Position numbers and translations under genes: made by a program
In this document: one piece after another, positions 31,764 to 59,306 of the stretch
How the letters are laid out: every line of letters starts with the position of its first letter
Numbering within the stretch: position 1 is the stretch's first letter
NCBI GenBank assembly: GCA_023055425.1
Contig: JALGPY010000035.1
Span: 3,029,501 to 3,093,500, forward strand
DNA from: Linanthus parryae
Lineage: Eukaryota; Streptophyta; Magnoliopsida; Ericales; Polemoniaceae
Reading direction: 5' to 3'
Length of the DNA stretch: 64,000 bases
Notes under the pieces: model-generated
What the model saw: the letters and a program-made list of their open reading frames with translations, nothing else
What the model was told of the DNA's origin: nothing
The model's database searches: none

Positions 31764-32156
31764 TAAATCGTTGTTGAAAGAAAGAACAGGACTCTTGAAG
31801 ACATGTCAAGAACAATGCTTCTGGAAAATAAATTGCCAAAGTACTATTGGGCAGAAGCTGTGAATACATCAAGCTATATTCTCAACAGGTGCTTGATCAG
31901 ACATATTCTGAAGAAGACCCTTCATGAGTTGTTCAAAGGAATAAAGCCAAACATTTCTTACTTCAAACCTTTTGGTTGCATATGATTTGTTCATAATAAT
32001 GGTAAGGACAATCTTGGTAATTATGATGCAAGAAGTGATGAAGGTATTTTTCTTGGTTATTCACATACAAGCAAAGCCTATAGAGTTTATAATAAGAGAA
32101 CCAAGTTTGTTGAAGAAATAATTTGTGTCATATTTGATGAAAGCTATGATGGTTCT
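31764..32156 (+). pseudogene. Sire-D integrase remnant after a large deletion
   Basis: The sequence goes from the gag/protease border (CATAAATCG) directly to the integrase C-terminal words VERKNRTLEDMSRTMLLENKLPKYYWAEAVNTSSYILNRC (first in one frame, then 31803-31982). About 850 bp present in Sire-C (12165-13015), carrying protease and the integrase core, are missing. Further C-terminal integrase words (GYSHTSKAYR, VIFDESYDG) follow in another frame. Confidence 0.75.
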
Positions 32157-33545
32157 TTGAGTGATGGTTTTGCAGATCTTAATCTGAAAAAGCATGATTC
32201 GGATACTGAAGAAGAATCCTCAAAAGGTTCCAAGGAAATCTTACAGCAACAAAGAAGGCAATTTCAAGGCCTTGAAAATAAGGTTCAAAGCCTTGAAACA
32301 AAATCTACAAAGAAGACAGCAGATCAAGCTACTACTTCAAGTTCTAAAACACTTGAAAAACAAATAGGAGAGCCTGAAACTTGGACACCAAGGAAGAGAT
32401 TTAAATATCTCTTATCTCATCCTGCTGATAATATTATTTTTGATTCAACCACTGGTACGCAAACCAGATCACAATTGAAGAATCTCTGTGCTTTTAATGC
32501 TATTATCTCTCTTGTAGAACCTAAAACTGTGAAGGAAGCATTACAAGAAGCATACTGTATCATAGCTATGCAAAGTGAAATCAATGAGTTAGAAATGAAC
32601 AAGGTTTGGAGTCTAGTTTCTCCACCAAGAAATCAGTCTGTTATTGGCACCGAATGGGAATTCAGAAACAAGTTAGATGAGAATGGAAAGGTCATCAGGA
32701 ACAAAGTCAGATTGGTAGCTCAAGAAGAAGGTATTGACTGTGATGAAACTTTTTCTCCTGTTTCCAGGGAATTTGAAGCAATTATAATTGTACTTGCATT
32801 TGCATCTCACAAGAACATGAAACTCTTTCAAATGGATGTGAAGTGTGATTTTCTAAATGGCTATTTGCAAGAAGAAGTTTATGTTGATCAACCTCTAGGT
32901 TTTTAATATGACAAGTTTGCAGGCCATGTTTATAAACTTGATAAGGCACTTTATGGTTTTAAACAAGCGCCAAGGGCTTGGTATGAAAGATTGTCAAAAA
33001 ATTTACTAGAAAATGATTTCAAAAGAGGATTAGTAAATAAAACCATTTTTATAAAAAATCTTGAGAAAGACATGCTTGTAGTTCAAATTTATGTTGATGA
33101 TATTCTGTTTGGAGCTACTAATGATCTTCTTTGCAAGGAATTCTCAATTCTTATGAGCCGGGAATTTGAAATGAGCTTAATGGGAGAATTGAACTTCTTT
33201 CTTGGACTTCAAATTCACTAGATGAAGCAAGGCATATTCTTACATCAAAGCAAGTACACAAGATAATTTCTGAACAAGTATAATATGTCTCAATCCAAAG
33301 AGATCAAGAACCCCATGAGTTCTACATTGTATTTAGACAAAGATGAATCTGGTAAGAGTGTTAATGTGAAAGATTATAGAGGTATGATTGGATCATTACT
33401 ATATCTCACAGCCAGCAGACTAGATATCATGTTCAGTGTTTGCATGTGTGCTATATTTCAAGTTGATCCTAAAGAATCGCACTTGTGTGCAGTTAAAAGA
33501 ATCTTTAGATATCTCAATGGTACCAAAGACTTAGGGATTTGGTAT
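32157..33545 (+). pseudogene. Sire-D RT and start of RNase H
   Basis: 32157-32903 is open for 249 residues. It contains the linker with FQGLENKVQSLETKSTKKTA (perfect palindrome 32262-32277), TPRKRFKYLLSHPADNII, KEALQEAYCIIAMQSEINEL and RNKVRLVAQ (a short in-frame loss before EEGIDCDETFSP). It continues to FQMDVKCDFLNGYLQEEVYV, where the usual Ala/Ser after C is Asp. After a stop, 32991-33221 has IYVDDILFGATND (intact YVDD). 33285-33545 has the RT-RNase H connection (GSLLYLTASRLDIMFSVCMC, RIFRYLNGTKDLGIWY) and ends at the Ath-2 insertion. Confidence 0.83.
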
Positions 33546-35415: not shown

Positions 35416-35562
35416 CGGCGCCGTTGCCGGGGACTTTGGCTGAATTTGTATGGGGGAAACAACGGGCAGAACGCCGAGGCACCGGTTAACAATGCTGAGA
35501 TTGAAGACCGCCCTATGGTGGACTATTTCAGGACTACTCCAGCATGTTACCAACCTACCATC
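35416..35562 (+). pseudogene. Ath-2 PBS and truncated gag start
   Basis: CGGCGCCGTTGCCGGGGAC (35416-35434) is the PBS with its first base changed from T to C. It is followed by a deletion fusing the leader to gag words equivalent to GNNGQNVEAPVNNAEIEDR, MVDYFRTTPACYQPT. It ends at CCATC, where Tat-1 inserted. The gag continues at 50297. Confidence 0.75.
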
Positions 35563-36188
35563 TGTAGATAGTGCTTTCTGAGCTGACAGATCTTGGCCAC
35601 GTGGCAACCATCCAGCACACCATATTGTGCTCCATACACACTGGATCACCAGCCGAGCTGATCCATGGGGGGCTGCGAGACAGAGCCCTCGCATACCACT
35701 GCACGGGACTTGTAGGGACTTAGTGGTTTGGAGGCTAGAGTAAGCCCTGTCGCGTGCGAGCCAAGCCCGCGCGCGACCTTTAGTAACTGTTTTCAGAGAT
35801 TTATGGCACGAGCTCCATAAACCCGGTCAATCCGGTCAAACCCGGTCAACCTCGTAACGGTTCCGGTATTCGCGCATAACGTGCTGTAACGGTCCCTATA
35901 TATGAGGAAGAACGTGCCGTTGTGGTTAAGCTAATTAAGCCGCCATTAATGGGCGCATTAACCACACTACAACGGTCATGTTCCCTGCAATATATAGGAC
36001 GTTAACCTTTCCATACAAAAGAGAACACACTGGCCAAACGCGGAAGCTCTGCCAAACCTCTGTCTCTCTCTCAGACATTACTACTGCCTTACTCTCTCCC
36101 TACACACAACCCAACTCTTCCTGTGCTATCTCTAATCCTCTACATACGGTGTACACGGAGGTCTCCCCGCCGGAATCTCTTTTGCACA
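35563..36188 (+). repeat. Tat-1 5' LTR
   Basis: TGTAGATAGT...TTTGCACA. It contains three tandem CCGGTCAA words (35823-35849; the complement TTGACC is the core of a plant W-box) and two TATA-like boxes, TATATAT at 35897-35903 and ATATATA at about 35989. A pyrimidine-rich leader (CTCTGTCTCTCTCTC) follows. The first TATA-like box sits about 290 bp before the LTR end. Confidence 0.9.
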
Positions 36189-36191
36189 TTT

Positions 36192-36208
36192 TGGTGAACC
36201 CAACGTGA
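36192..36208 (+). other. Tat-1 primer-binding site
   Basis: TGGTGAACCCAACGTGA begins three bases after the LTR end and starts with TGG. The matching tRNA is not assigned here. Confidence 0.7.
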
Positions 36209-36228
36209 ACTTACCAACAAAAGCAACC

Positions 36229-38841
36229 ATGTCTCAGGAGGATGATATCAGCAACAGATCACCTTCCACCGAAGCTGCCTCGGGAGAGGAGACCCGCCGT
36301 ACTCCTACGACCCCCGGCGAGGCACCGACGCTAGAATCCTTAGACGCCACTGTCCAAAGTCAGGCGAAAGCTCTCAAAGCTCAGTCTGCGCAGCTAGAAC
36401 GGATTCTGGCCGTTCTGGGCACCCTTGCGCCAAACCCTTCATCAGCCACCGTCGTCTCTCAAGGAGGAGGAGCCCCTACCGCTCCAGGATTGGGAGCGTC
36501 AACCACACCTACCAACCCTAATCTGCAGACTCCACCGGCGACTACGCAGCTGACTTCAATTCAAGGGTCAACGGCTCAGATGTTGCCTCTCACTGCTCAT
36601 ACTCCTCAGCCTCCGGCTTTGGTACCTAATTCGGCGTCGCAGTATCCCTTGCCTCCAACAACGGCGATCCGGGGCAATGCGAGCAGCCAATATGTCCCCA
36701 ATCCTCCGGCGGCGTATGTGTCGCCTCCGCCTGCGGCAACCCCTCCTTCTGCTACCAAGGGAAGCATTCCAGAATGCATGACGTCTCTGCAGAAGCGCAT
36801 GGACACTATTCTGGCTCACCAATCATTCGCGGATACCATCATTCCGAAGCTAGACAACGATCCACCCATCCCGCGGGAGATCTATCTTATGCCTAACCCG
36901 GTGGGGTATAAGGCTCCTAAATGGGACAAGTTCGAGGACGTCAACGGGAACGCTCATGAGCACGTCATGCGTTTCATTGATGTCATGGGACCATACGGAG
37001 CTGATCCCAAATTGCTAATGCGAGAGTTCCCAAAATCCTTGGGTAACGTAGCATACAAGTGGTACCGAACGTTGGAGGCCGGATCCGTGAAGACTTGGGA
37101 CGACATGGTCCCGAAGTTCTATACCAAGTTCTTCCAGATGGAAGAAAATGTGACAATGATCCACCTCTCGCGGATGTATCAGAAGCGCGAGGAGGACGGG
37201 ATCACTTTCATCAAGAAATTCAGGGCGAAGTCCTTGGAATGCAAAGATCCAATGCTCGAAAGCCGGCTTGTAGAGATATGCCTGCAGTGCATGCGAGATG
37301 AATACAAAGGTATGCTCATCAACCTGCAAACACCTACGTTTTCAAAGCTTATCGAGTGCACGAAGAACATCGAGCCTATAGTTGAGAGGCAGAAAAAGAA
37401 GAACGCTCCGGAGCGATCTGCGAGCGGTACCACCTACAAAATCAGGAGGTTCAGTTACAAGAGGGGACGCGAAGCTGAGGTCAATACAGTTTCAACCCAG
37501 AAGAAAGCGAAGGTTGTGAACTTCGACGTACCACCTCTGCCATGTTCGGTGGAGGAGGCAAGCGACCTCTGCAGGCAATGGCGCAAGGACGGTGTTCTGC
37601 CGCCGCTCGAGAAGGTACCCTCCAAGGAGATGGTGAGGGACCCGAAGTGGTGCGAGTACCACGGCAAGGTCATGCATCCCACAGCGAAATGTAAGAAGCT
37701 CAGGATTGTATTCAATCAGAAGGTGAAGAACGGCGAGCTGATCATCAGCGATCACAGGAAGGATGTGCGCAACAATCCACTTCTTGCCCATGCGGAGCAA
37801 GACTCGAAAGGAAAAGAGGTCGCCATGATCTCGATTGTGTACTTGGAAGAAGTCGCAGAAGATGGTCTACCCATCATTGCCGAAGTCCATGAGGATGAGG
37901 ACTACAGCGTAGACACGGAAGACGAACGTGCTGACCGAATGAAGGGGTCACACGGCTTTAGCAGATTCTTCGACGAGATAAACTTCTCCGAGAAGTGCCG
38001 GACAGAGATGACGAAAGCAATCTTGAGGATAGCAGAGGACTACAAGGAGGATCTTGTAGTCTCTAACGGGAAAGTCATCAGGGCGTCCCGCTCTACAGAA
38101 AAGATTATGACCTTTTCTGCCAGCGATAAAAAGACAGATGCGAGCCACCAGAGGCCTCTGTATGTGACAGCCATCATCAATGGTGTCGAGTTCAAACGAG
38201 CATTCGTAGACGGAGGAGCAGCAGTCAATGTCGTTTCGCTGCACACACTGAACCTAGTAGGGATCCCCGAGCACAAGATTGTCAGGCGTCCATCTGCGCT
38301 GATGGGATTCGGAAGCGACTCTAGAATGACGATCGGATGGATCCGCCTGGGCGTTCAGATTGGCAAAATCAAGTGCTCAGCGAAGTTCTATGTCATAGAT
38401 GCGAACACTACGTATCACATGATCATAGGTCGAGCTTGGATTCATCGCTTTGACGCGGTCCCTTCAACAGCTCAACAGGTCATGAAAGCTATCTGGAACG
38501 ACATAATAGTCGAGATACCGGCTTCAACAAATCCATTCAACTTGGATGAAGCACATCTCAGCGAGGCGGTATGGTTTACCGAGATGGCGGACGAGCAAAC
38601 ACCTGGACCATTCAACCCCACTCCTTTACCTCTATGGGAAGATATCAAGGACCAGTCACCTGCGGGAGTGATGGTGACGAGGGAAGATGCCAAGGAAAAG
38701 CCGCCCACACGCGAAGAGGCGCCGCGAATTGCTTACCATCGAAAGAACGTGTACACTTTGAAGAGAATAGCAAAGCATGACCCTGAAGGCAAAGAGATAG
38801 AGAGTTTCTACGCCAATGGGAAGAAGTGTTATCGCATATGA
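36229..38841 (+). CDS. Tat-1 gag-protease polyprotein
   Basis: Open for about 870 residues from the first ATG (context ACCATGTCTC) at 36229; the frame is open a little further upstream without ATG. The N-terminal third is Pro/Ala/Thr-rich and low in complexity. The gag domain is at about residues 225-360 (APKWDKFEDVNGNAHEHVMR, NVAYKWYRTLEAGSVKTWDD, FQMEENVTMIHLSRMYQKRE). A Tat-type zinc finger WCEYHGKVMHPTAKCKKLR is near residue 473, with basic stretches before it. The retropepsin domain begins near residue 635 with the active site AFVDGGAAVNVV (D-G-G, usual for Tat/Ogre) and MIIGRAWIHRFDAVPS. It ends with TGA at 38839-38841, in the same frame as pol. Fully open, so plausibly functional. Confidence 0.92.
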   Translation: MSQEDDISNRSPSTEAASGEETRRTPTTPGEAPTLESLDATVQSQAKALKAQSAQLERILAVLGTLAPNPSSATVVSQGGGAPTAPGLGASTTPTNPNLQTPPATTQLTSIQGSTAQMLPLTAHTPQPPALVPNSASQYPLPPTTAIRGNASSQYVPNPPAAYVSPPPAATPPSATKGSIPECMTSLQKRMDTILAHQSFADTIIPKLDNDPPIPREIYLMPNPVGYKAPKWDKFEDVNGNAHEHVMRFIDVMGPYGADPKLLMREFPKSLGNVAYKWYRTLEAGSVKTWDDMVPKFYTKFFQMEENVTMIHLSRMYQKREEDGITFIKKFRAKSLECKDPMLESRLVEICLQCMRDEYKGMLINLQTPTFSKLIECTKNIEPIVERQKKKNAPERSASGTTYKIRRFSYKRGREAEVNTVSTQKKAKVVNFDVPPLPCSVEEASDLCRQWRKDGVLPPLEKVPSKEMVRDPKWCEYHGKVMHPTAKCKKLRIVFNQKVKNGELIISDHRKDVRNNPLLAHAEQDSKGKEVAMISIVYLEEVAEDGLPIIAEVHEDEDYSVDTEDERADRMKGSHGFSRFFDEINFSEKCRTEMTKAILRIAEDYKEDLVVSNGKVIRASRSTEKIMTFSASDKKTDASHQRPLYVTAIINGVEFKRAFVDGGAAVNVVSLHTLNLVGIPEHKIVRRPSALMGFGSDSRMTIGWIRLGVQIGKIKCSAKFYVIDANTTYHMIIGRAWIHRFDAVPSTAQQVMKAIWNDIIVEIPASTNPFNLDEAHLSEAVWFTEMADEQTPGPFNPTPLPLWEDIKDQSPAGVMVTREDAKEKPPTREEAPRIAYHRKNVYTLKRIAKHDPEGKEIESFYANGKKCYRI

Positions 38842-41203
38842 AGGTGCGCGGGGATGTCCTCACACGGGCATGGGGATATCCCTGGGCAAATCAACCAAAT
38901 CGAACAGATTGCGGTAACGGAAAAGCCGATGCAGAGCACTCCAGATGAGAAGCTCAAAGAAGCACCTGAATGCATGGAAGACAGGCCCAGACCACAAAAG
39001 CAAGAGTTAAAGGAAGTGTTCCTCAGCCCGAACGAGGAAAAGAAGAGGCCAGTCTTTCTAAGTGCGGACCTCGCAAGCAAGGAGGAGCAAGGACTGCTAC
39101 AGCTCCTAACTGAATACAAGGATGTGTTCGCATGGGAGTATGATGAGATGCCGGGTCTGGATACAAGCATCACTATGCATCGTTTAGACATCATCCCAGG
39201 GTCTAAACTGGTAAAGCAGAGCACAAGAAGCTTCAAGCCGGAGCTTAACGTGAAGATCAAACAGGAGATTGTCAAACTCCTGGATGCCAAGTTTATAGAG
39301 CCGAATCATCATCCCACATGGCTGGCCAATATTGTGCCGGTGGTAAAGAAGAACGGACAGCTTCGCATCTGCGTGGATTCCCGGGATCTCAATCGCTTCT
39401 GCCCAAAGGACGATTTTCCACTGCCCAACATCAATTTGCTTATCGATTCAACAGCGGGCCATCGCATGTTCAGTTTCATGGACGGCTTCAGCGGGTACAA
39501 CCAGATCAAGATGGACCCTGAAGATGCGCGGAAAACTGCATTTATCACTCCGGTGGGGGTGTTCAACTACACAGTGATGTCGTTCGGTCTAAAAAATGCG
39601 GGTGCAACCTATCAGCGGGCCATGATGGCCCTATTCCACGACATGATGCACAAAGAAGTGGAGTTTTATGTGGACGACCTGGTGGTTAAATCCAAGCAGG
39701 AAGTAGATCACCTCGCGGATTTGCGGAAAGTGTTCAATAGATGTAGACGCTTTCAACTGAAGATGAATCCTATGAAATGCGCATTTGGGGTAACATCAGG
39801 GAAGTTCTTGGGATGCGTGGTTCATCGCCAAGGAATCGAGCCTGACCCTGCGAAAGTATCAGCCATCACTGGCATGACGCCGCCCCATTACCAGAGTACC
39901 TTGAAAACATTTTTGGGAAAGCTATCATATCTGCGGAGATTCATCCCAGCGATTGCCGAAATCACCTGCTGTTTTAGTGCCCTTCTCAAGAAAGATGTCG
40001 TATACAGCTGGACTCCGGAGCACGAAGCTGCGTTCGAAAAGCTGAAGGATCTGCTGACGTCTTCAAAAATAATGATCGCACCTCAACTGGGATCACCGCT
40101 TCTGCTATATCTGACGTCAACCAGGAGGTCCATAGGAGCACTCTTGGCTCAAGAGTACGAGGGTCAAGAAAGGCCTATCTACTATATCTCTCGCATTGTG
40201 CAACCTGCTGAATCAAGGTACACAGACATCGAACGTCATTGCCTTGCCTTGTTCTTCGTGATAGAGAAGCTGAAACACTACTTTGCGTCGCACAAAGTGG
40301 TAGTGGTCACCAAGAGCGATCCCATACGATATCTGCTAACTCACACTACTCCTGGAGGAAGATTGGCGAAATGGTACATGACCATCTCTCAATACGATAT
40401 CACATGCGTGCGACCGCGAGCGATCAAGTCGCAGGCGGTAGCGGATCTGTTGGCACAGTTCCCCGACAACAGCCATGAGCCCGTGATCGAAGAAGAGCTC
40501 GAAGGACCTGAAATCTATGCAATTGACGTGCCGTATTGGACGCTCCATTTCGACGGTTCGTCAACAAGGAAATGCGGGGGAATTGGGATAGTCTTGACCA
40601 AGCCGGATGGAGAGGTCATACAAATGTCCGCAAAGCTCGACTTTGCAGTCACCAACAACGAGGCAGAATATGAAGCCCTCATAGCGGGACTGCGCGCAGC
40701 GAAGGCTTTGGAAGTAAGCAATCTGACGGTCATGGGAGACTCCAAGTTGATCGTCAAGCAAGCCTCGGGCGAATACGGTTTGAAGGAGATAAACCTTCTG
40801 TCTTACCGGACTCTAGTACAAAAGCTGGTGCAACAATTCTGCGACGTGAGGTACGAGCACAAGCCCCGAGCAGACAACAGGCATGCAGATGCTTTGGCCA
40901 CCTTGGGATCCAAGGTCAGTACAGATAAATGTCCCGCAAGGATCTCCATCGAAGTGCGAACGTCGTCGGCATTGACAGAAGATGCGTACGACGACGAACA
41001 CATGGATGACACGGACTGGAGAAAAGCAGTCCTACGAGCTATTGCAGAAGGCACAAGCAGTGAAAGCTGGGCACTCACAAAGGGGTATTGCATACATGAC
41101 AACACCCTTTACTACAAGGGTCCTGGCGGAATACTCATGCGATGCGTCTCCGAGCAGGAGGGACAACTGTTGTTAGAAAAGATTCACCAACATGCTTGCG
41201 GAG
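38842..41203 (+). CDS. Tat-1 pol: RT, RNase H and archaeal-type RNase H
   Basis: In frame with gag-pro directly after one TGA; the first ATG is at 38854. Ty3-type RT (RVT_1): KKNGQLRICVDSRDLNRFCP, FSFMDGFSGYNQIKM, TPVGVFNYTVMSFGLKNAGA and the active site EFYVDDLVVKS (39661-39693). The RNase H that follows (about 40090-40470) has LLLYLTSTRRSIGALLAQ and RYTDIERHCLAL. A second RNase H (about 40530-40920) of archaeal type has WTLHFDGSS, NNEAEYEALIAGL, VMGDSKLIVKQ and DNRHADALATLGS, with all four acidic residues. This dual arrangement characterises the Tat lineage. The frame continues into a first, degenerate pre-integrase segment and shifts near 41200. Confidence 0.9.
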
Positions 41204-42574
41204 AAAGTGAGAATCTATCGGAAGGCTCAGAGATATGGCATTCACTGGCCAGACATGTCAACAGTCGTGGCCTTGATACAAGGGAAATGCGAGAGTTGCG
41301 CACTGATCAAAGATTCTCTACTCATCGCTCTAACCGATGATGACACGGATTGGAGAAAGCCAATCTTTGACTTTCTCACCCAGGGCACCGTACCCGAGTC
41401 GAGAAAAGAAGCTGAGAAATTGAAGAGGAAAGCATCTCGGTATGTAGTACAAGAAAACCTGCTTTGGCGAAGAGGTCACGAAGGCAACTTGCTGCGATGT
41501 CTAGACGGCAGGGAAGCACAAGAAGTCATGGACCTTTCTCATCAGGTAGAACACCAAGGAGGTGCGAAATTGTGCAGGCAGCTCCTCTCAATTGGATATT
41601 TCTGGCCCACGATGGAGGCTGATTGCCGCACCAAAGTACGACGCTGCCAGGAGTGTCAATTCAAAGGAAACCTGGTGCACGCTCCTGATGTGGATCTACA
41701 TGCATTAGGAACGCCATGGCCATTTCACACATGGGCTCTAGACTTCATTGGTCCCATCCGACCAACATCACACGGGAATCACTTTATTCTCACCGCAACT
41801 GAGCTATTCACCAAATGGGTGGAAGCGATACCACTGAAGACGGAAAATGCGCTAGCTGTGGTCAATTTCATCCAGGAAAACATCATATGCAGGTTCGGAA
41901 TTCCAAACACCATTCTTTCAGATAATGGTACTCCTTTTGTTAATCGCCAGGTGGCTGCGAAGTTAGCAGAGTACAATATCAGGCAAATATGTTCCACCCC
42001 TTACTACCCGAAGGGGAACGGGCAAGCCGAAGCGACCAACAAAACGCTGTTGAGGATTTTGAGCAAGATGGTCGCAGATGACCACAAGAAATTGGCCGAT
42101 TCTCTAAGCATAGCTCTGTGGGCTTACCGAACTTCTCCAAGGACACCCACGGGGGCCTCACCATTCCTACTATGCTATGGGGCCGAGGCCGTGGTACCTG
42201 CGTAGGTGAGAGTCAATTCGGCGAGATTGGCCTTTCACGCACTATACGACAATCAACGTGATCACGATTTAGTCTTGCTGGAGGAAAAGCGAGAACAAGC
42301 TAAAAGGACCAACAAGCGGTATCAAGAAAGAATCGCTCGCGCTTACAATAAGACGGTCCAGCGAAGAGATTTCGCAGTTGGAGATTTGGTCCTACGCGCA
42401 TCTGACCATTGCATGCGAGAAGCGGCTCACCCAAAGTTCGCAGCCAATTGGGAAGGACCCTTCGAAGTCACAGAAGTCTTTGACAGTGGCTACTGCAGCA
42501 TGCGAAGGTTGCACGGCACAACCTCAACCCCGAGTTCAGTCAACATGCGCTGGATTAAGAAGTACTATCCCTGA
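41192..42574 (+). pseudogene. Tat-1 integrase, one frameshift and one stop
   Basis: Integrase inserts the cDNA into the host chromosome. It lies in a different frame from RT, the change falling near 41200. The HHCC finger is HQVEHQGGAKLCRQLL...CRTKVRRCQECQ (about 41535-41660). The catalytic core has ALDFIGPIRPTSHGNHFIL, TILSDNGTPFVNRQVA and GNGQAEATNKTLLRIL (the D, D and E residues are present). After AVVPA a TAG (42203-42205) interrupts the frame, which then continues open to 42571 with the C-terminal GPF module (KFAANWEGPFEVTEV). The region before the finger (DDTDWRKPIFDFLTQG) repeats a similar one at 41007. Otherwise well preserved, so the breaks are recent. Confidence 0.88.
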
Positions 42575-42777
42575 CTTCTCTCATTTCATGCGTTTTATTA
42601 TAACGTTGCTTCATGTCTTGTATGGCTATGATTTACACAATCTCCTCTCCCATATGAGAAAATTGTAATCTCATCTCTCCCATATGAGAGCATCATAATA
42701 AGAGAATTCTCCCAAATGAGAACTTCATATTTCTGGCTGTTAATTTTGCTTCATTTAGTTTGTTATTACTGTTAACA
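42575..42777 (+). repeat. Short near-palindromic repeats after Tat-1 pol
   Basis: Downstream of the integrase stop are three copies, about 30-35 bp apart, of a TCTCCCATATGAGA-like word (about 42646, 42683 and 42709; the third reads TCTCCCAAATGAGAA). Each is a partial inverted repeat. No coding sequence is seen. Confidence 0.6.
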
Positions 42778-43690
42778 ATGGGCTATCCGCCACCATAGCA
42801 ATCTGTGCGAAATACGATCTTAATTGATCTTTTAAAGCCTATCTGCTACGATAGCACCCTTTGCGAAATGCGATCTTAACTGATCTTCTAAGCCTATCTG
42901 CTACGATAGCACCCTTTGCGAAATGCGATCTTAACTGATCTTCTAAGCCTATCTGTTACGATAGCAATCTATGCGAAATACGATCTTGATTGATCTTCTA
43001 AGCCTATCTGCCACGATAGCAGCCTATGCCAACCGCGATCTTAATTGATCTTCTAAGCCTATTTGCCACGATAGCAGACGCGATCTTAATTGATCTTCTA
43101 AAGCCTATCTGCCACGATAGCAACATAAGCAGATGTGATCTTAATTGATCTTCTAAAGCCTATCTGCCACGATAGCGGTTTACGCGAAATGATCTTAATT
43201 GATCTTCTAAAGCCTATCTGCCATGATAGCAACTCATGCGAAAAACGATCTTAATTGATCTTCTAAAGCCTATCTGCTACGATAGCAACTCATGCGAAAA
43301 ACGATCTTAATTGATCTTCTAAAGCCTATCTGCTACGATAGCAACTCATGCGAAAAACGATCTTGATCGATCTTCCAAAACCTATCTGCCACGCTAGAAA
43401 TATATGCGTAACGTGATCGTAAAACGATCTTCCAAGACTATCTGATGTGATAGCAGCGTTGTACAAACGCGATTTAAAATTCGTCCTTAAGACTATCTAT
43501 TGCGATAGCAACATCATGCAAAATGATCTCAAGTGATCTATGAAGTTCTATCTGATGTGATAGCACTTACATTTGAATCTGAAAGCAAATCACAAGCCCA
43601 TCTGCCGAGATGGCACAGCTGTGCAAACACGATCTCGAACGATCTAATAAGACATCTGCGAATTAATGAGGCAGATAGCAAATGCGAAGT
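42778..43690 (+). repeat. Tandem array of about 16 hairpin-forming repeats
   Basis: Units of 50-57 bp, each starting CCTATCTGCYACGATAGCA and containing ATGCGAAA and ACGATCTTAATTGATCTTCTAAAG. Two inverted repeats recur per unit: CTATC(N6)GATAG and the AT-centred GATCTTAATTGATCTT. The middle units (about 43080-43380) are nearly identical and the outer ones diverge. In the divergent unit at about 43600 the first stem reads CCATC/GATGG, so both sides changed together. Tandem repeats in the region after pol are a known feature of Tat/Ogre elements and a known source of satellites. Confidence 0.88.
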
Positions 43691-44654
43691 ATGTATATAG
43701 CATTACTCAAGGCGAAATATGCCGATACGCATGCGAAATTGTATTTTTTTGTAACGAGACAGCAGATGATACAAAAGCCATTTATCATTATGAGTCAAAA
43801 AGACTTACAACTTATCTGTCTAGATAACAGCTTACAAGCGAAAAAGCTCAAATCTAACTATGCAGCCAACATGGCTTACAATACATTCGAGAAGTAACTG
43901 ACAAGCCAGCAGTGACACACCGAGGGAATCCTAACTGAGAAAGGATGAACCCAACGGTCCTAACACCGGCTATGCGATACACAGATCTGCGGCCGGACAT
44001 CTATCGCAAGTAGGGCCTTGCTCCAAAGAGCTACATGAAGCCATACGTTCAAGATCCCAGTATTTGACAAGGCCCTTGTCTGATCAACATCCCATGAGAT
44101 GTGCTTGAGGAACCACCGGTTCCGGCGTTCGACAGGCAAGCAGAAGCTCCGAAGGGCAAGGGTTCCTTGTAGACGGGGATGAACGCAACGGGTCGCTACC
44201 CTGAGCTCACGAACATGGGGGCAATAAATTCTCCTCCAGGGATGCTGGAGGAGAATTCCACCGTTCATTACGAGTCGGTAGCACGGTCACTACGGCGCTG
44301 CACCTCACCGGGAGGCGGCCGGAAACATGACGTGCAAACATAATACACGAAGAAGATTCTTCGAACACACATGAGATATCATATCCATCTTTTTTACGAT
44401 GGTTATAAAGAGCAATAAGCCTCATAAAGCGGATCTTGGAAACTATTTCTATAGCACAAAGAGCAAACTCAGGATTCACAACTTGGAGTTGCCATGAATC
44501 AACGAAAAACAAGTGTTGAAGCCAGCAGTCGTAAGGACTCACGGCAAAGCACATTTTTTGGGATGAAGAACCCAAATGAAGCACCATTACATTAATGCTT
44601 GAGCATTACATTAATGTTTCAGCTATTCGTTTGCTACTTTTCAAAATTCAAAAG
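43691..44654. other. Intergenic region between the repeats and the antisense gene
   Basis: About 0.96 kb where plus-strand pol transcripts and the minus-strand gene would converge. No convincing coding sequence. It contains a plus-strand AATAAA (44223-44228) directly at a perfect 13-bp inverted repeat (44227-44257), and a 13-bp direct repeat CATTACATTAATG (about 44586 and 44605) built on the palindrome CATTAATG. Codon-like open stretches here have no family resemblance that I recognise. Confidence 0.5.
44227..44257. other. Perfect 13-bp inverted repeat, 5-nt loop
   Basis: AATTCTCCTCCAG, loop GGATG, CTGGAGGAGAATT. It overlaps a plus-strand AATAAA and lies in the gap between the convergent sense and antisense units. 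It may be an RNA 3'-end or structure signal; this role is inferred from position only. Confidence 0.7.
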
Positions 44655-45130
44655 TCAAAGCAAATTCTTGATCAAGGAATCATGAGGGGCGAACTGATGG
44701 CTCAGATTCTCTACCTGCTCCACTTCCTGCTTCAATTGCTCGCACTTGGCATTCATCTCATGATAGAGCTTCATAGCCTCTTCAGCCTTTTGCTTCTGCT
44801 GCTCCACCTTCCGCTTCTCAGCTGCGAGGTTCTGGTGGCCGAGTTTCAAAGTTACGGCTGCGCGAATCAGGGTAACTCTTTTCATAAGAAATCTGAAACC
44901 CAGTCGGCCTTGAACTTTGGCAAGAAGATTTTGGCACATGCCAAAAATCAATTCGGCACTCTGGACAGAAATGGTCGCAGGCGTGGCCGCAGACAGCTGC
45001 TCCAAAATCCAAATGGCTTCGGTAAGAAACAGCCTCCTGTCAAAGGGCCCTATCTCCAGAGATCTCGCAAATGATTGGGGGTAGGTGAGGCGCATCCGAA
45101 CTAGCCAGTCCACATCAGTTTGCTTCAAAC
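44655..45130 (-). CDS. Exon 5: helical domain and C-terminal coiled coil
   Basis: Starts in phase 1 after TTTAG with LKQTDVDWLVRMRLTYPQSF. A helical segment follows (TEAIWILEQLSAATPATIS, LIFGMCQNLLAKVQGRLGF) and then a long coiled coil (AAEKRKVEQQKQKAEEAMKL, NAKCEQLKQEVEQVENL). It ends with a stop at 44657-44655. Likely a dimerisation tail. Confidence 0.78.
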
Positions 45131-48100
45131 CTAAAGCAATGTCAAAGCCAAGTTATGCTATAAAACTCGCAAATGAAAAATGCGAGATGCAAACAGCAAA
45201 TCTCTACTTACCAGTTCCTTCAAGAATCTCACGAAGAGAAGGAATGCGCATTGCTGGAGTAGTCGAAGACTGCCCTCGCTCCTTAGCTCTCCTGTCAGCT
45301 GCGAGCTCTAACCCCTCATAGTTAGGAGGAAGAGTATAAGCCGCACCAGCTGCGACTGCATTCCCGACCTGCGAGCCCCAAAAGCTCCACGCAGGAAGAG
45401 GTGCCACCGACTCAGTCATCGCCGAAAGCGAAGTGACAGCCGAAGTTCCTTGGCGAGGGACACTTTCAGATGCGGAAGCATCAACAGTGCTTGTTCTTAC
45501 TTCCTCAGCGCCAGTATGGGCATCTTCCTCCATCAGCACAGCGTCAGCTTCGGCATCATCAGAAAGTTCGATGATGTCCTCAAGAGGCTCTCCTGCATGT
45601 TCAGCAGCCGTGACGGGCTTCTCGGTATGGGAACTCGGAATCGGAACATAGGACGGAGAAGGCTGACTTCTTTGCTCCAGCACAGGTTCCTCAGCATTGC
45701 CTGCGATATAAAATGCGATAGTATGAGGTAACTCGTATTGTACGTTATTTTACTATCTTTGCTAAAGCTAAGAGCAAGCACCTCCACGCGAAGGTGGGAT
45801 TGAAGTATCTCTGTCATACACTAAAGACGTGGAACCATGCCCTATTAGTGTGTCCTCATTAAGCAGGTCCTTAAAATGAGCGTGACCTGGGACGCGAAGA
45901 AACCAGTCATGATTCTGTTTCAAGTTGCTAAGGTCTAGTCCATGCATATCGTTCAAATGATTACCTGAAGGTTCTCCGCACTTGCCTACTAGCCAACGGC
46001 GAATGTCAGCTTTTGACACACCATGCTTTAATGCACCAACTACAACATCTCTATAAGTTACTGCGAGATTGAAGATCTCACCTTTCTCGCCGCCTGCGAT
46101 TTCTTCAAAATCTGCTTGGGCTTGCTCCAGAGCTGCTGCATCCTCTTCTGGAGCCGCATCATCCTCCTCCGCTTGAGGAGCCACCTCTTCGGGAAGCACA
46201 TCTTCCTCGTCAGCTGGACGCACTAAGTCGTCAACATGTTGCTCTTCGAGGCTCCGCTGTCTCACACGCTCGAGCTCCTCCTCTTCGCGCTGCCTTCTTC
46301 TTTTGGCAGCTTCCGCGGCTGTCTTCTTGGACTCGGCAAGAACGTCCTCGCTTATGGGTTCGTCTGGAGTGCTAGAATGAGCATTCCTCTTTTGTCTCTT
46401 GGCCAAAAGGCCACCGATGGTCTCATCATCATCATCATCTGCGAAGAAACGATTGGTTTAAGAAAGAGTTGCAAAAGAATTACGATAATGAGAAGGGAAA
46501 CGCGATGGAGGTACCTCCTGATTCTTCCTCATGTATCACATTTGTTCTTTCTTCTTCTTCTTCATCACCTTCTCTGGGCTCCTGCCTCTCCTCTTCTTCC
46601 TCCTGGTTGAATGGAACAAAGGTCTCAACTGCGAGCTCCTTCCGCGCTCTACTGGGCATGCGACCCTTGCCTTTATCCTTGACAGAAAGGGACCTCGCTG
46701 GAGGGGAAGTTGGAGCACTTCTAGGGGAAGAAATTGTAATTCCCTTTTGCCTGGGTCTCTTCGCTCTCGGCGCGGCAGTCGCTGGAGGAGACGGATCATC
46801 TCTGGGTGGAGACGAGGCCGGAGCATTGTCTATCAGCGAGTCAGCAAAAGCATTCATGACTGCGCGAATCCTGGTTTCGACCTCGGGGTCCATCCTCGAT
46901 GCTAGCAGGAACGACTGTCCTTGTCTTCTGGTGGCAACAATGGTGTTAACCAACGACTTGGAACGATCACCAGATGCGAATCTCCGCACATGACACTACA
47001 GCAAACAGTATAGAATGAAAGCATCAACATGTGGAAATCAAGAAGCTTAACGCACGCGGAAAAAGTTGCTTACCTTAGCAAATGTCTCGCTATATCTGAT
47101 GACATGCGAGTCGCCTTTCTTAACTGCGACGATCTTTTCCTTCAGAATGACGTCAGGGCACAAATGGTTCTCATGATCCAACAATGAGTAGCAACCATAT
47201 TCAGACTCGCTCAGACTGCAATTGGGGCGAAACGGAAAAGAGTTTCTTTTGATCAAGGGAGCTCTACTCGGCTGGGCGGCCGACTGTGTCTCAATCCTCG
47301 TTTGCTGAGCGATCCAGTATGCGAGCAAGTTCTGGGAACAACCGCCCTCGCGGTTACCCGCAGGCTGCTCAAAGGGAAGATTGTTCATGAAGACTGTCTT
47401 GCACTCCTTTGTTAGCAAGCGCTTATAGCAACCTCTGATAATAGACTGGGGCCAGATTGATGGTGCCACTGCATCAAAGCCGAACTGGGGAGAAACGCGA
47501 GTGGGATCGACATCTACGGTAATCCTCTCGTATCTGGGCGCGAGCTCACGAATATGCTCTGCGAGAGGAGGTAGGGAACCTCGCAGGCACCAGCAAAAGA
47601 ATTCGTGGTAGCGTTCATGAAAATGCGATCCCTCTTCGAAGAGGAGCTCTTCTGAGAAGACGACATCCTTAGAAGGGTACAGCTTTGGAAACCATCGCAC
47701 GTTCCCAATGCGCATGGCATAGGGCCTGGCAGTGAACTCTTGCCGCTTGTCGCATATCAGGCTCCAAACGCACTTGGTATTGTTCTCTCCGAACCACCTC
47801 GCAGCTCTGCCACTGTTACGCTCCTCCGTCTCACCTGGGGGACACCACTTGTTGGGCTTAAGAGCAGTTGGGGCATAGGACGGCCATCGCTCAAAGACCC
47901 ACATCGTCAAGAAGGAAATGTTGACAAAAGTCAGTATATCGAGACGGCCACGTGACTCCTTCATGGCCACAACTAGCTGATCCAGTCTATAGTACATTGT
48001 GCCCAAGACCAAGGGTCCGAGTGCGACTCTCTAGCCAAGGGCGAGCTTCACAGCAAGCAGCAGAACGTGATAGAAGACCCCATCATGCGGGTGACCATCG

Positions 48101-48954
48101 ATTAAGTACCTCGACAGCCATGCACAGAGGAAAGCACAAAGGGTCAAGTGATAGCCTTTACCCTCCACATAATTCTTGGCCTCCGGGTCCTCACTTAGAA
48201 GATTCTTGGTGATGCTGCTGTTCGCGTAGTCACGAAAGAAGTACTGCACCCATTTGTTCCAGGTATTCTTCGCAGACGTATCAACCAACTGCCAGTTCGG
48301 AAGGGCTTTGGTAGTAGTCCACCGGGTGGAGATTTTCTTCACCTCTGATAGGCCTTCCTCCATCTGCGTGTACAAAGCGATCTCCGCAGCCGTCCTCAAA
48401 GGACTCAAGGGGTCCACTTCACCCATGGGAGAAAGATCGTACAGCATATGCACGTCCTCGAGTGTAAGGGCAGCCTCGAACTCAGCAAAGTGGAATGTGT
48501 GAGTCGCAGGCGAGTAGCGGGAAAGAAGGTTTAGAAGCATGGACTGGTCCAGCTTCACGGCAACACCCTTCATAGCACGAACAGCGAAGTATACGCCGGC
48601 CTCATTAAGAGTCGCAGCATGATCGGTCAAAACGTGGTCAATCCACTCATCCATGTAGTCCAATATCTGGACAAAAGCTTGGGTGGAAATCGCAGCATAG
48701 GGGAAGTACCCATTTTCGATTCCCAATCGAACCACGTCCTCGAAGCCAATCAACTCGAGCAAGGCTGAGTTAACTGGGGGAGTCAGTGTTAGCAATCCCT
48801 CATTGGGGACAGAAGCAGGAAATTTCTTAGCCTTAACCCTCGCGTGGTAGAAATCTTTGCCACCCAGGTAGGGGGCTTTTCGCCACAAAGCTTGCGGAAG
48901 ATCAGGTATCTCTTCGTCCTCCTTGGTGGGTTTGGTTCCTTTTGTCTTGGCCAT
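44655..48954 (-). CDS. Five-exon antisense PMD gene of Tat-1 (one in-frame TAG)
   Basis: Minus-strand gene inside Tat-1, start ATG at 48954-48952. Exons: 48954-47074, 46995-46515, 46438-45782, 45700-45212, 45130-44655. Introns are 78, 76, 81 and 81 bp with GT-AG ends (donors GTAAGC, GTACCT, GTGCTT, GTAAGT; acceptors TGTAG, CGCAG, CGCAG, TTTAG). Phases are 0, 1, 1, 1 and the total is 3984 nt (1328 codons), so frame is kept throughout. Exon 1 holds a plant mobile domain. Exons 2-4 are Ser/Pro-rich and acidic with basic clusters, and exon 5 ends in a coiled coil. The only break is TAG at 48031-48033. Antisense extra ORFs with PMD-like domains are known in Tat elements; in plants PMD proteins (MAIN/MAIL1) act in the nucleus in silencing and gene expression. 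The role in the element is unknown. Spliced structure is inferred, not shown by transcripts. Confidence 0.85.
45212..45700 (-). CDS. Exon 4: acidic Ser/Thr-rich region
   Basis: Low-complexity region with EPLEDIIELSDDAEADAVLM (an IIELSDD word resembling SUMO-interaction motifs; inference only) and then Ala/Ser/Thr-rich sequence to SLREILEGTG. Phase 1 at both ends, donor GTAAGT. Confidence 0.72.
45782..46438 (-). CDS. Exon 3: acidic, coiled-coil and conserved short domain
   Basis: Starts with a run of aspartates, then LLAKRQKRNAHSS, a charged coiled-coil stretch (KKTAAEAAKRRRQREEEELE) and a long acidic segment. A compact segment follows (GEIFNLAVTYRDVVVGALKH, SKADIRRWLVGKCGEPSGN, LKQNHDWFLRVPGHAHFKDL) that I do not recognise. 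Phase 1 at both ends. Confidence 0.75.
46515..46995 (-). CDS. Exon 2: Ser/Pro-rich linker with basic cluster
   Basis: Begins in phase 0 after the acceptor TGTAG. Wording: CHVRRFASGDRSKSLVNTIV, then PSPPATAAPRAKRPRQKGI (KRPRQK resembles a nuclear localisation signal), PARSLSVKDKGKGRMPSR and an acidic EEEEERQEPREGDEEEEE tract. It ends after one base of a codon at the GTACCT donor. No known domain. Confidence 0.75.
47074..48954 (-). CDS. Exon 1: plant mobile domain
   Basis: 627 codons. The start MAKTKGTKPTKEDEE is preferred over an open upstream stretch that lacks ATG. PMD hallmarks: THTFHFAEFEAALTLEDVHM near residues 150-170, then LLLAVKLALG, stop, RVALGPLVLGTMYYRLDQL near residue 308, then LTMWVFERWPSYAP. 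Farther on come YPSKDVVFSEELLFEEGSHF and RVSPQFGFDAVAPS, the usual wording after the PMD in such element-borne proteins. The TAG at 48031-48033 falls inside the conserved helix pair. Reading continues in the same frame on both sides with no other break, so the stop is a recent point change or is read through. Confidence 0.85.
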
Positions 48955-49657
48955 TCCTGCGGAAGAGCAAGAAAAAAGGGGGGAGAAATATGCCACACTT
49001 CAGTTTGAATTTCGAGATTCAAGATCTATGGAAAGAAAGATGAACAGTTTCCGGTATCAATTTCAGAAATTAGAGGGTTGCAAAACCCTATCCAAGATCC
49101 TTATCATCGAAGGATTAAGCCAAAAGTGGGTTCAAAGATCAAAGCTTCTTCGCAAGTTTCAACAGATAATATGTCATGGGTTTGCAGATCCAACACAGTT
49201 CAAAGCATACACTGGTATTTTAAATCGAAATTGGACGAGGCCAACCTTGTTTTCGCGAAGTCTGCTTGGATACACACAGTTGAAGAAGACGATTTGCAGT
49301 TCTGAACTGGTGATTGATTATCTGAATCTGCTCTCGAAGACTTCCGGGTATCATTCACTTTAAGAGAAGGAAGTGATGCTTTGCAACAATGGAGAGTACA
49401 AAGTATTTATCCAAAAACAATGAAGGGTTGCGTCCTTTCAGTAGTCGAATCGCAACCGTCACCGTCGAATCGCGCAATCACATGACAAGCTGACGTCACG
49501 CCTAAAACCCTAAAGGCCAGACGGCACGACTCTAGGGGTTTTAGGTCATAATGGCACGCACGGGGGCTGAACTTACCCGTATTTGAATTGGTGCGTGGCA
49601 GCGACGCGTATGTTGGTTTCCGCGCATGGAAGTCTATACAGCTATGAGTCTTCACGC
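48955..49657 (-). promoter_or_regulatory. Upstream region of the antisense gene
   Basis: About 0.7 kb between the antisense ATG and the Tat-1 3' LTR. On the minus strand a TATA-like GGATAAATACT lies at 49412-49402, about 450 bp before the ATG. Farther up are a TGACGTCA palindrome (49491-49498), a telo-box AAACCCTAA (49505-49513) and an inverted repeat CCTAAAACCCTA/TAGGGGTTTTAGG (49501-49545). These are plausible promoter parts by motif only. No coding sequence. Confidence 0.4.
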
Positions 49658-49673
49658 GCAGAAAGGGGGCTAA
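49658..49673 (+). other. Tat-1 polypurine tract
   Basis: CGCAGAAAGGGGGCTAA-like tract with GAAAGGGGG at 49661-49669, four bases before the 3' LTR. Confidence 0.8.
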
Positions 49674-50291
49674 TGTAGATAGTACTTTCTGAGCTGACAG
49701 ATCTTGGCCACGTGGAAACCATCCAGCACACCATATTGTGCTCCATACACACTGGATCACCAGCCGAGCTGATCCATGTGGGGGCTGCGAGACAGAGCCC
49801 TCGCATACCACTGCACGGGACTTGTAGGGACTTAGTGGTTTGGAGGCTAGAATAAGCCCTGTCGCGTGCGAGCCAAGCCTGCGCGCGACCTTTAGTAACT
49901 GTTCTGAGAGATTTATGGCACGAGCTCCATAAACCCGGTCAAACCCGGTCAACCTCGTAACGGTTCCGGTATTCGCGCATAACGTGCTGTAACGGTCCCT
50001 ATATATGAGGAAGAACGTGCCGTTGTGGTTAAGCTAATTAAGCCGCCATTAATGGGTGCATTAACCACACTACAACGGTCACGTTCCCTGCTATATATAG
50101 GACGTTAACCTTTCCATACAAAATAGAACACACTGGCCATACGCGGAAGCTCTGCCAAACCTCTGTCTCTCTCTCAGACATTACTACTGCCTTACTCTCT
50201 CCCTACACATAACCCAACTCTTCCTGTGCTATCTCTAATCCTCTACATACGGTGTACACGGAGGTCTTCCCGCCGGAATCTCTTGTGCACA
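49674..50291 (+). repeat. Tat-1 3' LTR
   Basis: 618 bp, TGTAGATAGT...TTGTGCACA, followed by CCATC. It has two instead of three CCGGTCAA units. TATA-like boxes are at 50000-50006 and 50092-50098. Confidence 0.9.
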
Positions 50292-50296
50292 CCATC

Positions 50297-52217
50297 GTTA
50301 GGCCATAGAGCAATGACCAGCACTTCGAGCTACGCCAAAATATGATTAGTATGGTTCGTGATGAATGCGCATTCAACGGAGCTCCAGGAGATGATCCCAA
50401 CCATAATCTGCTGGTATTTGAGCAAATCACATCAACCTTGCACGACCAACGAGTTCCAGATGAAACAGTTAAGCTATTACTGTTTCCTTTCTCCTTATCT
50501 GGAAAAGCCAAGAAGTGGCTTATGGAACTGCCTGCTGGGAGCATAGTGACATTGGCGGATTGTTTTCATGAGTTCTCTGAGGAAGTATTTTCCAACATCA
50601 AGAGTTTCTCAGCAGATGGATGAGATTGCAAACTTCAATCAGGACGAAGACAGCTCCTTGGGAGATGCGTGGAGGAAGTTCAGTGAAATTCTCCGTAGAT
50701 GTCCGAATCATGGGGAGCCATGGCACAAGCTCCTCCATTATTTCTACAGTGCGTTAGACAAGGAGACAGCTGACCAGTTAGATATGCTACCTGGGGGTAA
50801 CTTTATGGTACTTGAGGCATAGCGAGCTCAGGATCTTCTGAACAACGTGGCTTAGAGAGAGACTACGAGGTATGATACTCATAGGTATTCGAGACCTGGG
50901 GATGCTGCTTTGGTCAACAAAATTGAATCTATGGAGCAGAAGCTAGAATCCATGACCTCACCATTTCACGGCATGCAACCTCCATCACAAGTGAAGCCCA
51001 TGGGTGAGTTACTCGCGGTTGAGAATTAAGGATATGGCTCCATTGAAGATGTGAATTACATTGGTCCACCACGACAGCAGCAGTGGACTAATACTTATCA
51101 TCTTGAAAACTGCAATCACCCCAACTTTAGCTATGCCAACCCTAACAGTGGGTTATATGCACCGGGTCATCAGCCAAGTACGTCATACCAGGCACAGCAG
51201 CAGGCCCCACGACAAGAACAGGAAGAGAAAAATGCGTTATTGAGAAAGTTGATTGCTAATCAAGACATGATGGAGAGCAAGATTGTCTCTATGCAAGCCA
51301 CACTTATGAGCCACGAGACTCAGATTGGGTAGATTGCCAATCAGAATGCTAAATTTCCACCAGGTATGCTGCCTTCTAATACCATTCCTCCTACTGAGCA
51401 GCTCAAAGCTATTACTACTCGTAGTTGCATTACTACTCAGGATCCTCCATATCCTAGCCATGCGAGAGTTGAAGCTACAAAGGCCACAGAGAAGGAATTG
51501 GGTGAAGAGGTTCCCAAGACCGTGAGTCCCCAATCAAAGGACACGGTTAAGATAGAAGAGCCCAAGAACACCCCAAACCCGACCAGTTATGAGCCACGGA
51601 TACCATATCAGGAGGCAACAAAGAAGGATGATGAGGAACACTTTGGAAAATTTCTAAACATATTCAAGCAGCTGCATATAAACATCCCATTAGTGGAAGA
51701 ACTTTCTCAAATTCCCAAGTATAAGAAGTTCTTGAAGGAGATCTTATGGGGCAGGAAGAGCATAGATCATTATGCTACGGTAAAGTTGACAGAGACATGT
51801 AGTACGGTGATTCAGAGAGACATTCCCAAGATGAGAGATCCAGGTAGTGTCATTCTAGGCTGCACTCTCGGGGGTGGATATCATACACATGGTCTTTGTG
51901 ATTTGGGCACGAGTATCAATCTTATGCCATTGTCCTTATTTAAGATAGTTGGCATTGGTGCGCCAACCCCAGTGAAGATGGGTATGCAATTGGAAGACAA
52001 TTCTATTGTTACAGAAAAAGGGGTGATTGAGAACTTTTTCTTGAAAGTGGGTGCGTTTGTCTTTCCAGCTGACTTTGTGATAGTGGACATCAAGGAGGAT
52101 CGCGATGTTTCACTTATCTTTGGAAGACCGCTTTTGAAGACAATGCGCGCTAATGTGGATCTAGAGACTGAGGAGTTGACTATCAAAGCTCAAGATTCAT
52201 CACTCGTGTTCAAATAA
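50297..52217 (+). pseudogene. Ath-2 gag-protease, distal part
   Basis: Continues the Ath-2 gag after Tat-1. Gag wording DECAFNGAPGDDPNHNLLVF, LLFPFSLSGKAKKWLMEL and LGDAWRKFSEILRRCPNHG is spread over two frames because of an indel near 50575. Stops follow at about 50821, 50854 and 51029. From 51366 to 52214 the frame is open for 283 residues and joins the gag C-terminus to protease without a stop (EELSQIPKYKKFLKEILWG), then LCDLGTSINLMPLSLFKIVG and DVSLIFGRPLLKTMRANVD. This copy shows that gag and protease form one frame in the family. Confidence 0.85.
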
Positions 52218-58228: not shown

Positions 58229-58661
58229 ATGCAGAATGAGCTGAATGAGTTTGAAAGGAAAAAGTTTTGGAACTTGGTTCCACGACAAAAGACTCAATCT
58301 GTTATTGGAACAAGATGTGTATTCAGGAACAAACTTGATGAAAATGGCAAGGTTGTGAGGAATAAAGCCAGACTTGTGGCACAGGGATATAATCATGAGG
58401 AAAGAATTTATCATGACGAGACATTTTCTCCTGTTTCCAGAGTTTTCAAGTTTAATGTGCAAGGAGTTTGAAATGAGCTTGATGGGAGAACTCAATTTCT
58501 TTCTTGGACTTCATGTTCATAAAATGAAGAAAATAATATTTGTACATCAAGGGAAGTATACCAAGGACTTCTTGAACAAGTATAACATGTCTCAGTCTAA
58601 GGTATTGAAGACTCCAATGAGTTAATCTCTGTCCTTAGACAAGGACACAAGTGGTAAGAGT
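58229..58661 (+). pseudogene. Sire-E RT with the catalytic core deleted
   Basis: 58229-58450 reads KFWNLVPRQKTQSVIGTRCV, FRNKLDENGKVVRNKARLVA and DETFSPVSRV. At about 58446 it jumps to SLMCKEFEMSLMGELNFFLG, so about 330 bp with the FQMDVK and YVDD motifs are missing. KYTKDFLNKYNMSQSKVLKT follows, and a second, shorter deletion lies near 58676 before RPHIMFSVCMCARF. RT activity is therefore lost. Confidence 0.82.
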
Positions 58662-59306
58662 GTGAATCAAAAGGAATGTAGACCACATATTATGTTTAGT
58701 GTATGTATGTGTGCAAGGTTTGAAGCAGATCCTAAGGAAATTCATTTGACAGCTATTAAGAGTATCTTCAGATATTTGAATGGAACCAAAGACTTGGGGA
58801 TTTGGTATCTAAGAAGAACTAATTTCTTGTTGAGTGGTTATTCAGATGCAGACTTTGCAGGTTACAAAGTGGATAGAAAGCGTAATTCTGGATGCTGTCA
58901 ATTTCTTGGCTCATCATTAATCAGTTGGCATTCAAAGAAGAAAAATTCAGTAGCCTTGTCAACTGCAGAAGCTGAATACATTGCAGTTGGTGCTTGTTGT
59001 TCTCAAGTTCTTTGGATTGCTCAACAATTGAGGGATCTTGGATATGATTTCATAAGTGTGCCTATTAACTGTGATAATACTAGTGCCATTTCAATATCAA
59101 AGAATCCAGTGCAACATTCAAGAACTAAGCATATAGATGTGAGACATCATTTTAAAAGGGATCATGCTGAGAAAGGTGATGTACCTTTATATTTTATTTC
59201 AACTTCTATGCAGATAGTTGATATTTTCACTAAACATTTTCCAGACGAAAGGTTTGCAACCCTACGGCTTGAATTGGGTATGCTAAACAAGGATGAATTG
59301 GTTTAG
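58662..59306 (+). pseudogene. Sire-E RNase H (open reading frame intact)
   Basis: Open for 214 residues to the pol stop. SGYSDADFAGYKVDRKRNSG (first Asp), ALSTAEAEYIAVGACCSQVL (Glu), NCDNTSAISISKNPVQHSR (Asp), HIDVRHHFKRDHAEKGDV and IVDIFTKHFPDERFATLRLE cover the full Copia RNase H and tail. It is the best kept pol domain among the Sirevirus-like copies here, but it lacks a functional RT upstream. It shows what Ath-1 and Ath-2 interrupted in Sire-C and Sire-D. Confidence 0.88.

Follow-up and report, generated by a model that had tools for sequence, protein, structure and literature searches.

Can a retrotransposon carry, on the strand opposite to its own genes, an intron-containing gene that selection has kept, and what might such a gene be for? 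The question is raised by a 64,000-nucleotide stretch of the Linanthus parryae genome (GenBank assembly GCA_023055425.1, contig JALGPY010000035.1, positions 3,029,501 to 3,093,500, forward strand; here called the window). In it, a Tat-clade Ty3/gypsy element of 14.7 kb (35563 to 50291, plus strand) holds, between pol and its 3' long terminal repeat (LTR), a five-exon minus-strand gene that includes a plant mobile domain (PMD). From the third-position bias of its variants, its kept splice sites, and its comparison with a divergent copy, we conclude with high confidence that a spliced antisense protein gene was kept by purifying selection as the family spread and that the window copy has decayed since.

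The antisense gene and its state in the window copy

Exon 1 (47074 to 48954, minus strand, like all parts of the gene) comprises the N-terminal part and the PMD. It is followed by exon 2 (46515 to 46995), with an acidic run and the basic cluster RAKRPR, which by eye resembles a nuclear localization signal (NLS); exon 3 (45782 to 46438), an acidic linker (51 acidic against 27 basic residues, D+E and K+R, respectively, among 219) with the basic clusters KRQKR and RRR; exon 4 (45212 to 45700), which is acidic too; and exon 5 (44655 to 45130), with a coiled-coil-like tail, heptad-like by a simple home-made score, and the stop codon. The four introns (46996 to 47073, 46439 to 46514, 45701 to 45781, and 45131 to 45211; 78, 76, 81, and 81 bp, respectively) all have GT-AG ends, and the exons join in matching phases into 3984 nucleotides, or 1328 codons with the stop included. 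A preliminary description of this DNA had proposed the same exons, introns, and reading frame, as well as the acidic linker and the coiled-coil tail, and all of these were reproduced. Alternative phase-matching GT-AG pairs occur near every junction, and conservation among the copies singles out the pairs named here.

The PMD was recovered with the Pfam profile PF10536, which matched the first piece of exon 1 at profile positions 7-142 with 48.1 bits (cut-off, 34.9), in agreement with what the preliminary description had read there. The second piece of exon 1 continues the first on the profile (positions 146-294; 24.3 bits, which taken alone is under the cut-off), and the two together span positions 7-294 of 347. 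None of the other exons had a Pfam match above the curated cut-off. The second piece (327 residues, window 47050 to 48030) had no match at E values up to 0.001 among 906 candidates from a predicted-protein collection, none up to an E value of 1 among solved structures, and no relative among viral contigs.

Between the two pieces lies an in-frame TAG (48033 to 48031, codon 308), which cuts exon 1 within the PMD, between profile positions 142 and 146, and which was overlooked when the gene was called intact-looking. With standard decoding, the window copy therefore cannot yield the complete protein. All 20 other copies analyzed lack the TAG. The pol region of the window copy is also broken, since its integrase frame (41177 to 42574, plus strand) is out of frame with the reverse transcriptase (RT) frame and has a stop at 42203 that is unique to the window copy among the 14 compared. 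The idea of an element-carried PMD protein gene thus held in that the gene is borne by the element and its introns and frame are conserved in relatives, but the supposed intactness of the window copy was not supported.

Conservation and selection in the copy family

The genome that the window comes from (1.51 Gb) was searched for copies, with 177 residues of the PMD (309-485) as the query. There were 11,124 first-look candidates, and the 150 that were scored all matched at 93-100% identity; the unspliced exon 1 donor and its 15 flanking bases to either side occurred within 3 mismatches at 722 genome places. Twenty copies, all from scored places on the plus strand, were analyzed beside the window. 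The five-exon layout recurred in all of them, deletions and one insertion aside, with donors GT in 83 of 83 cases and acceptors AG in 80 of 83 (the copy L015 lacks intron 3). Splice dinucleotides were less variable than intron interiors (3 of 16 versus 118 of 232 sites, p 0.018), and when variants seen in a single copy were set aside, the figures were 0 of 16 and 44 of 232 (p 0.08).

With single-copy variants again set aside, the fractions of varying sites were 0.069, 0.060, and 0.215 at first, second, and third codon positions, respectively, and introns, at 0.190, were about as variable as third positions. The third-position bias was present in every exon (Fisher p of 7.9e-27, 8.2e-7, 2.9e-4, 1.4e-5, and 1.7e-6 for exons 1 to 5) and weakest in exon 3. 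Selecting copies by similarity in residues 309-485 could depress variation in that stretch; exons 2 to 5 and the rest of exon 1, which lie outside the query, gave the same codon-position pattern. For variants found in two or more copies, the ratio of nonsynonymous to synonymous polymorphism (pN/pS) of the gene was 0.24 for transitions and 0.38 for transversions, and for those in at least three it was 0.22 and 0.26.

A further, divergent copy, L036, was located through a PMD gene at C57:122.94 Mb that matched the L036 subfamily at 38-42%. At a synonymous divergence (dS) from the window of 0.66, its ratio of nonsynonymous to synonymous divergence (dN/dS) was 0.149 overall and 0.106, 0.169, 0.193, 0.334, and 0.130 in exons 1 to 5, while its introns differed by 0.41. 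In L036, the four introns are all still present (73-81 bp by the cuts of the alignment) with their GT-AG ends, as is the acceptor just before the ATG. Its joined frame breaks at the exon 2/3 boundary, where the alignment is ambiguous and the cut was off by one base, and this break was not counted as a lesion. Although it concerns one pair of copies, this comparison is the strongest evidence that the spliced reading was selected. Neither of two outcomes that the preliminary description had named as refuting it, a missing PMD match in exon 1 and relatives without conserved splice sites and frame, occurred. The fastest-evolving part was exon 4, with a dN/dS of 0.33 versus 0.11-0.19 in the other exons; its acidic stretch might contact a changing host partner.

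Several observations weigh against the reading of the locus that we favor. None of the 21 copies, the window included, is free of lesions in the gene (stops, frameshifts, or deletions), and L036 carries a frame change inside exon 3. The in-frame stops fall at 19 positions on the window's codon grid, 15 of them in a single copy and four common to two copies each (L018/L014, L019/L021, L016/L017, and L024/L026), the shared ones reflecting either recurrent mutation or the spread of broken-gene copies helped in trans. From the lesions, the L036 frameshift, and the shared stops, it follows that the gene may be dispensable in cis. In addition, singleton variants, which include post-insertion decay, gave a pN/pS of 0.49 for transitions and 0.54 for transversions, and the integrase (17 copies including the window, variants in at least two) gave 0.06 and 0.22, respectively; the antisense gene is constrained, but less than the integrase. 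Finally, no intron-less genomic copy of junction 1, 3, or 4 turned up when 3 mismatches were allowed, against the 722 places for the unspliced exon 1 donor. Of the 21 copies, 21, 21, and 20 came within 3 mismatches of the joined 30-mer of junctions 1, 4, and 3, respectively, and the failure to find intron-less copies of these three junctions is neutral on splicing, because the replicating RNA is the other strand.

Proposed role of the protein and alternatives

In the mechanism that we propose, the host's splicing machinery would process a minus-strand transcript into the message for a large PMD protein of ~1327 residues, with the PMD, the basic NLS-like clusters, the acidic linker, and the coiled-coil-like tail. 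The introns would outlast retrotransposition because the template of reverse transcription is RNA of the opposite strand, in which they are no introns; the antisense orientation is thus a simple explanation for intron retention in a retrotransposon. A TATA-like ATAAATA (49404 to 49410, minus strand) makes a minus-strand promoter within the internal region plausible, and a pyrimidine tract with CAG before the ATG, ending at 48957, is a candidate acceptor of a 5'-untranslated-region (5'-UTR) intron (48957 to 49245, minus strand; donor at 49245 or 49210), so that the five coding exons are probably preceded by an extra 5'-UTR exon. The ATAAATA box and the tract with CAG were conserved in all six usable sequences (the window and five loci; L005 and L008, which are in the other orientation, were left out).

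As a whole, the best explanation of the locus, which we judge probable, is a selected, spliced antisense PMD gene for a nuclear protein that most likely acts against silencing. Its parts are not equally firm. That the protein would be a nuclear accessory factor is rather likely, and the antisense protein of Grande, reported to be nuclear and to have its own promoter (PMC7264820), speaks for it. The counter-silencing step is tentative: the element's PMD protein could compete with or redirect the host's own PMD proteins in the MAIN/MAIL1-PP7L silencing pathway, and the element would as a result stay expressible. Since MAIN and MAIL1, which act in the silencing of transposable elements (TEs) (PMC5418596, PMC7156037, PMC9899485), work with PP7L, interference with this pathway is our leading guess, and counter-silencing has already been proposed for the PMDs of Mutator-like elements (MULEs) (PMC5418596) and for TE PMDs (PMC8616336). 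A guess it is, because the literature covered yielded no biochemical activity of the PMD, which also counts against our explanation. MAIN and MAIL1 (PMD-C) resemble the window protein in having a PMD, and they have a nuclear role in TE silencing, but they are host genes. If the protein does touch their pathway, this would have a bearing on the origin of host PMD proteins.

Ranked next after counter-silencing, and somewhat doubtful, is another job for the same gene: a direct part in the replication cycle (bringing the pre-integration complex into the nucleus, choosing targets, or regulating the genomic RNA), like that of retroviral accessory proteins, with host silencing untouched. Vicient and Casacuberta suggest a replication-type role for antisense extra open reading frames (ORFs) (PMC7264820), and a coiled-coil-like tail and basic clusters fit many nuclear scaffolds. 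It is the PMD, common to host silencing proteins (PMC5418596), that argues against such a role, as does the lack of any Pfam match over the curated cut-off in the other exons.

It is improbable that the antisense RNA and not a protein is what matters, base-pairing with genomic RNA toward its 3' end and serving as a source of small RNAs. An RNA role has been proposed for transcripts of antisense additional ORFs (PMC7264820), and in tea 175 phased small interfering RNA (phasiRNA) loci lie at PMD genes, which may or may not belong to such elements (PMC10673657). A function of the RNA only, however, would predict neither a concentration of variants at third positions in five exons in the right phases nor introns free to vary beside them.

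Less probable still is a passenger, that is, a recently captured host gene, for which the introns and the host-like domain would speak. Against a recent capture stand the 722 genome places with the exon 1 donor, the copy with the same layout at a dS of 0.66, and the low identity of host PMDs to the window PMD. Six of these were compared, and none combines five matching exons with high identity: the closest, a single-copy gene, is 35% identical, three cluster PMDs are 23-31% identical, and two others are 19-22% identical. On these grounds (copy number, shared layout, and host PMD identity), a captured host gene was rejected. Chance open frames opposite other constrained sequence, to which the several plus-strand open frames opposite the exons might point, were likewise rejected as next to impossible, since the gag-pol frames end at 42574 and the constraint follows the antisense frame alone in all five exons and holds at a dS of 0.66.

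The single-copy PMD gene deserves a description of its own. It is the one at C57:122.94 Mb (G000:C57:122938625-122939830; L035 or L032), with a 678-residue open frame, and it was single-copy in a search in which 111 places were scored of 12,172 candidates, the next best having 50% identity and 5 stops. Its PMD is 35-42% identical to the element PMDs. In an unrooted tree of 13 PMD sequences from the same genome, the window PMD and the element copies were joined by this gene (98.6/100), apart from the cluster PMDs, and on sequence grounds it is a candidate for domestication. The cluster PMDs come from dense high-scoring clusters at C57:126.3-127.7 Mb, C46:154.9-155.9 Mb, and C2:29.2-29.9 Mb, which contain many long open frames and are apparently local expansions. 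A bolder idea, and an unlikely one, is that the spliced antisense PMD gene is a dedicated antagonist of the host PMD pathway across subfamilies (dS of ~0.66), with the gene at C57:122.94 Mb as its domesticated descendant; if true, both sides of an arms race, element antagonist and domesticated descendant, would be present within one genome.

The host element, its relatives, and its surroundings

The element is flanked by the target-site duplication CCATC (35558-35562 and 50292-50296) and is nested in a gag frame that, from the flanking translation, reads as Athila. Its 5' LTR (35563 to 36188, 626 bp) and 3' LTR (49674 to 50291, 618 bp), both on the plus strand, differ at 14 of 617 aligned bases, a Kimura two-parameter (K2P) distance of 0.023. 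At substitution rates of 1.3e-8 or 7e-9 per site and year, this corresponds to an estimated insertion age of roughly 0.9 to 1.6 million years. On the plus strand follow a stop-to-stop open gag-protease frame (36136 to 38841), the start of which overlaps the end of the 5' LTR, and a frame for RT, RNase H, and an additional RNase H (aRH) (38842 to 41340), identified by translation and Pfam profiles. In Ogre elements, a short spliced region sets the gag-protease frame apart from that of RT, RNase H, and integrase; in the window copy, the two frames are in register, split by a stop (38839-38841) with no gap seen. The RT_RNaseH (418-518) and RVT_3 (570-687) matches share one frame. Directly after pol comes a tandem array of 55- to 56-bp units (42756 to 43466), which resembles the kind reported for Retand and aligns to the other copies in fragments only. 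A polypurine tract, found by eye, adjoins the 3' LTR (49661 to 49669, plus strand).

An aRH besides the RT-linked RNase H marks the Tat clade (PMC6317226), and its position between RNase H and integrase marks Ogre/Retand elements (Neumann 2019, PMC6317226); both features are found here, and they bear out the Tat-like host proposed earlier. A PMD in an extra ORF, a typical though not universal Ogre trait, is present, while Transposase_28 (PF04195), a Retand trait, had no match at E values up to 0.1 in the six pieces of the antisense gene that were scanned, a search that did not extend to the plus-strand frames there. With a PMD present and no Transposase_28 found, the element is therefore filed only as Tat clade, angiosperm type.

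Much about such genes is already in print, namely PMD extra ORFs in gypsy elements, PMD clades confined to gypsy elements, antisense nuclear accessory genes, and the counter-silencing proposal. PMD extra ORFs date back to Steinbauerova 2011, according to the papers that cite it; the domain (pfam10536) is in the extra ORF of 57% of Ogre elements (Neumann 2019, PMC6317226), and PMDs are reported in LTR-element consensuses of ten species, or 40 without the filter. The window gene has in common with the Ogre/Tat genes that its PMD sits in an extra ORF and that its Tat-clade element places the aRH between RNase H and integrase, but an extra ORF there is a frame of at least 250 codons (PMC6317226). 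The clades PMD-A1 and PMD-A2 are encoded exclusively by Gypsy elements and are widespread in angiosperms (Ikeda 2017, PMC5418596); the window PMD is likewise encoded by a Gypsy element and may belong with them. The Retand antisense Transposase_28 ORFs, found in 97% of recent clusters (PMC11963269) and in 23% of elements (PMC6317226), and gene23 of maize Grande, whose antisense protein is reported to be nuclear and transcribed from its own promoter (PMC7264820), resemble the window gene in running antisense, in their place between pol and the 3' LTR, and in having a tandem-repeat array nearby (PMC11963269, PMC7264820), but theirs is Transposase_28 and not a PMD. The stretch from pol to the 3' LTR is ~7.1 kb in the window versus 2.9-6.6 kb in Retand, and the internal region is ~13.5 kb versus 7.4-12.9 kb (PMC11963269).

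What is added here is the precise, conserved five-exon antisense layout and its selection profile; no such multi-intron layout or profile was found in the parts of the literature that were covered. Vicient and Casacuberta (2020, PMC7264820) called for a search for antisense and spliced transcripts of such extra ORFs. In this high-copy family, the kept introns together with the constraint on codons lead to the clear prediction of a spliced antisense protein, and the junctions are given exactly.

Immediately downstream of the antisense gene, at window position 44579, 19 of 20 copies hold ~240-380 extra bases (estimated from BLAST gaps), apparently lost from the window copy; the alignment of L025 breaks in another way. 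Fragments at 17053-19134, 50309-52217, 13229-14474, 31986-32906, and 58626-59306, read by eye from their translations, resemble parts of Athila gag and of Copia-type polyproteins, and the window region is made up of nested retroelements.

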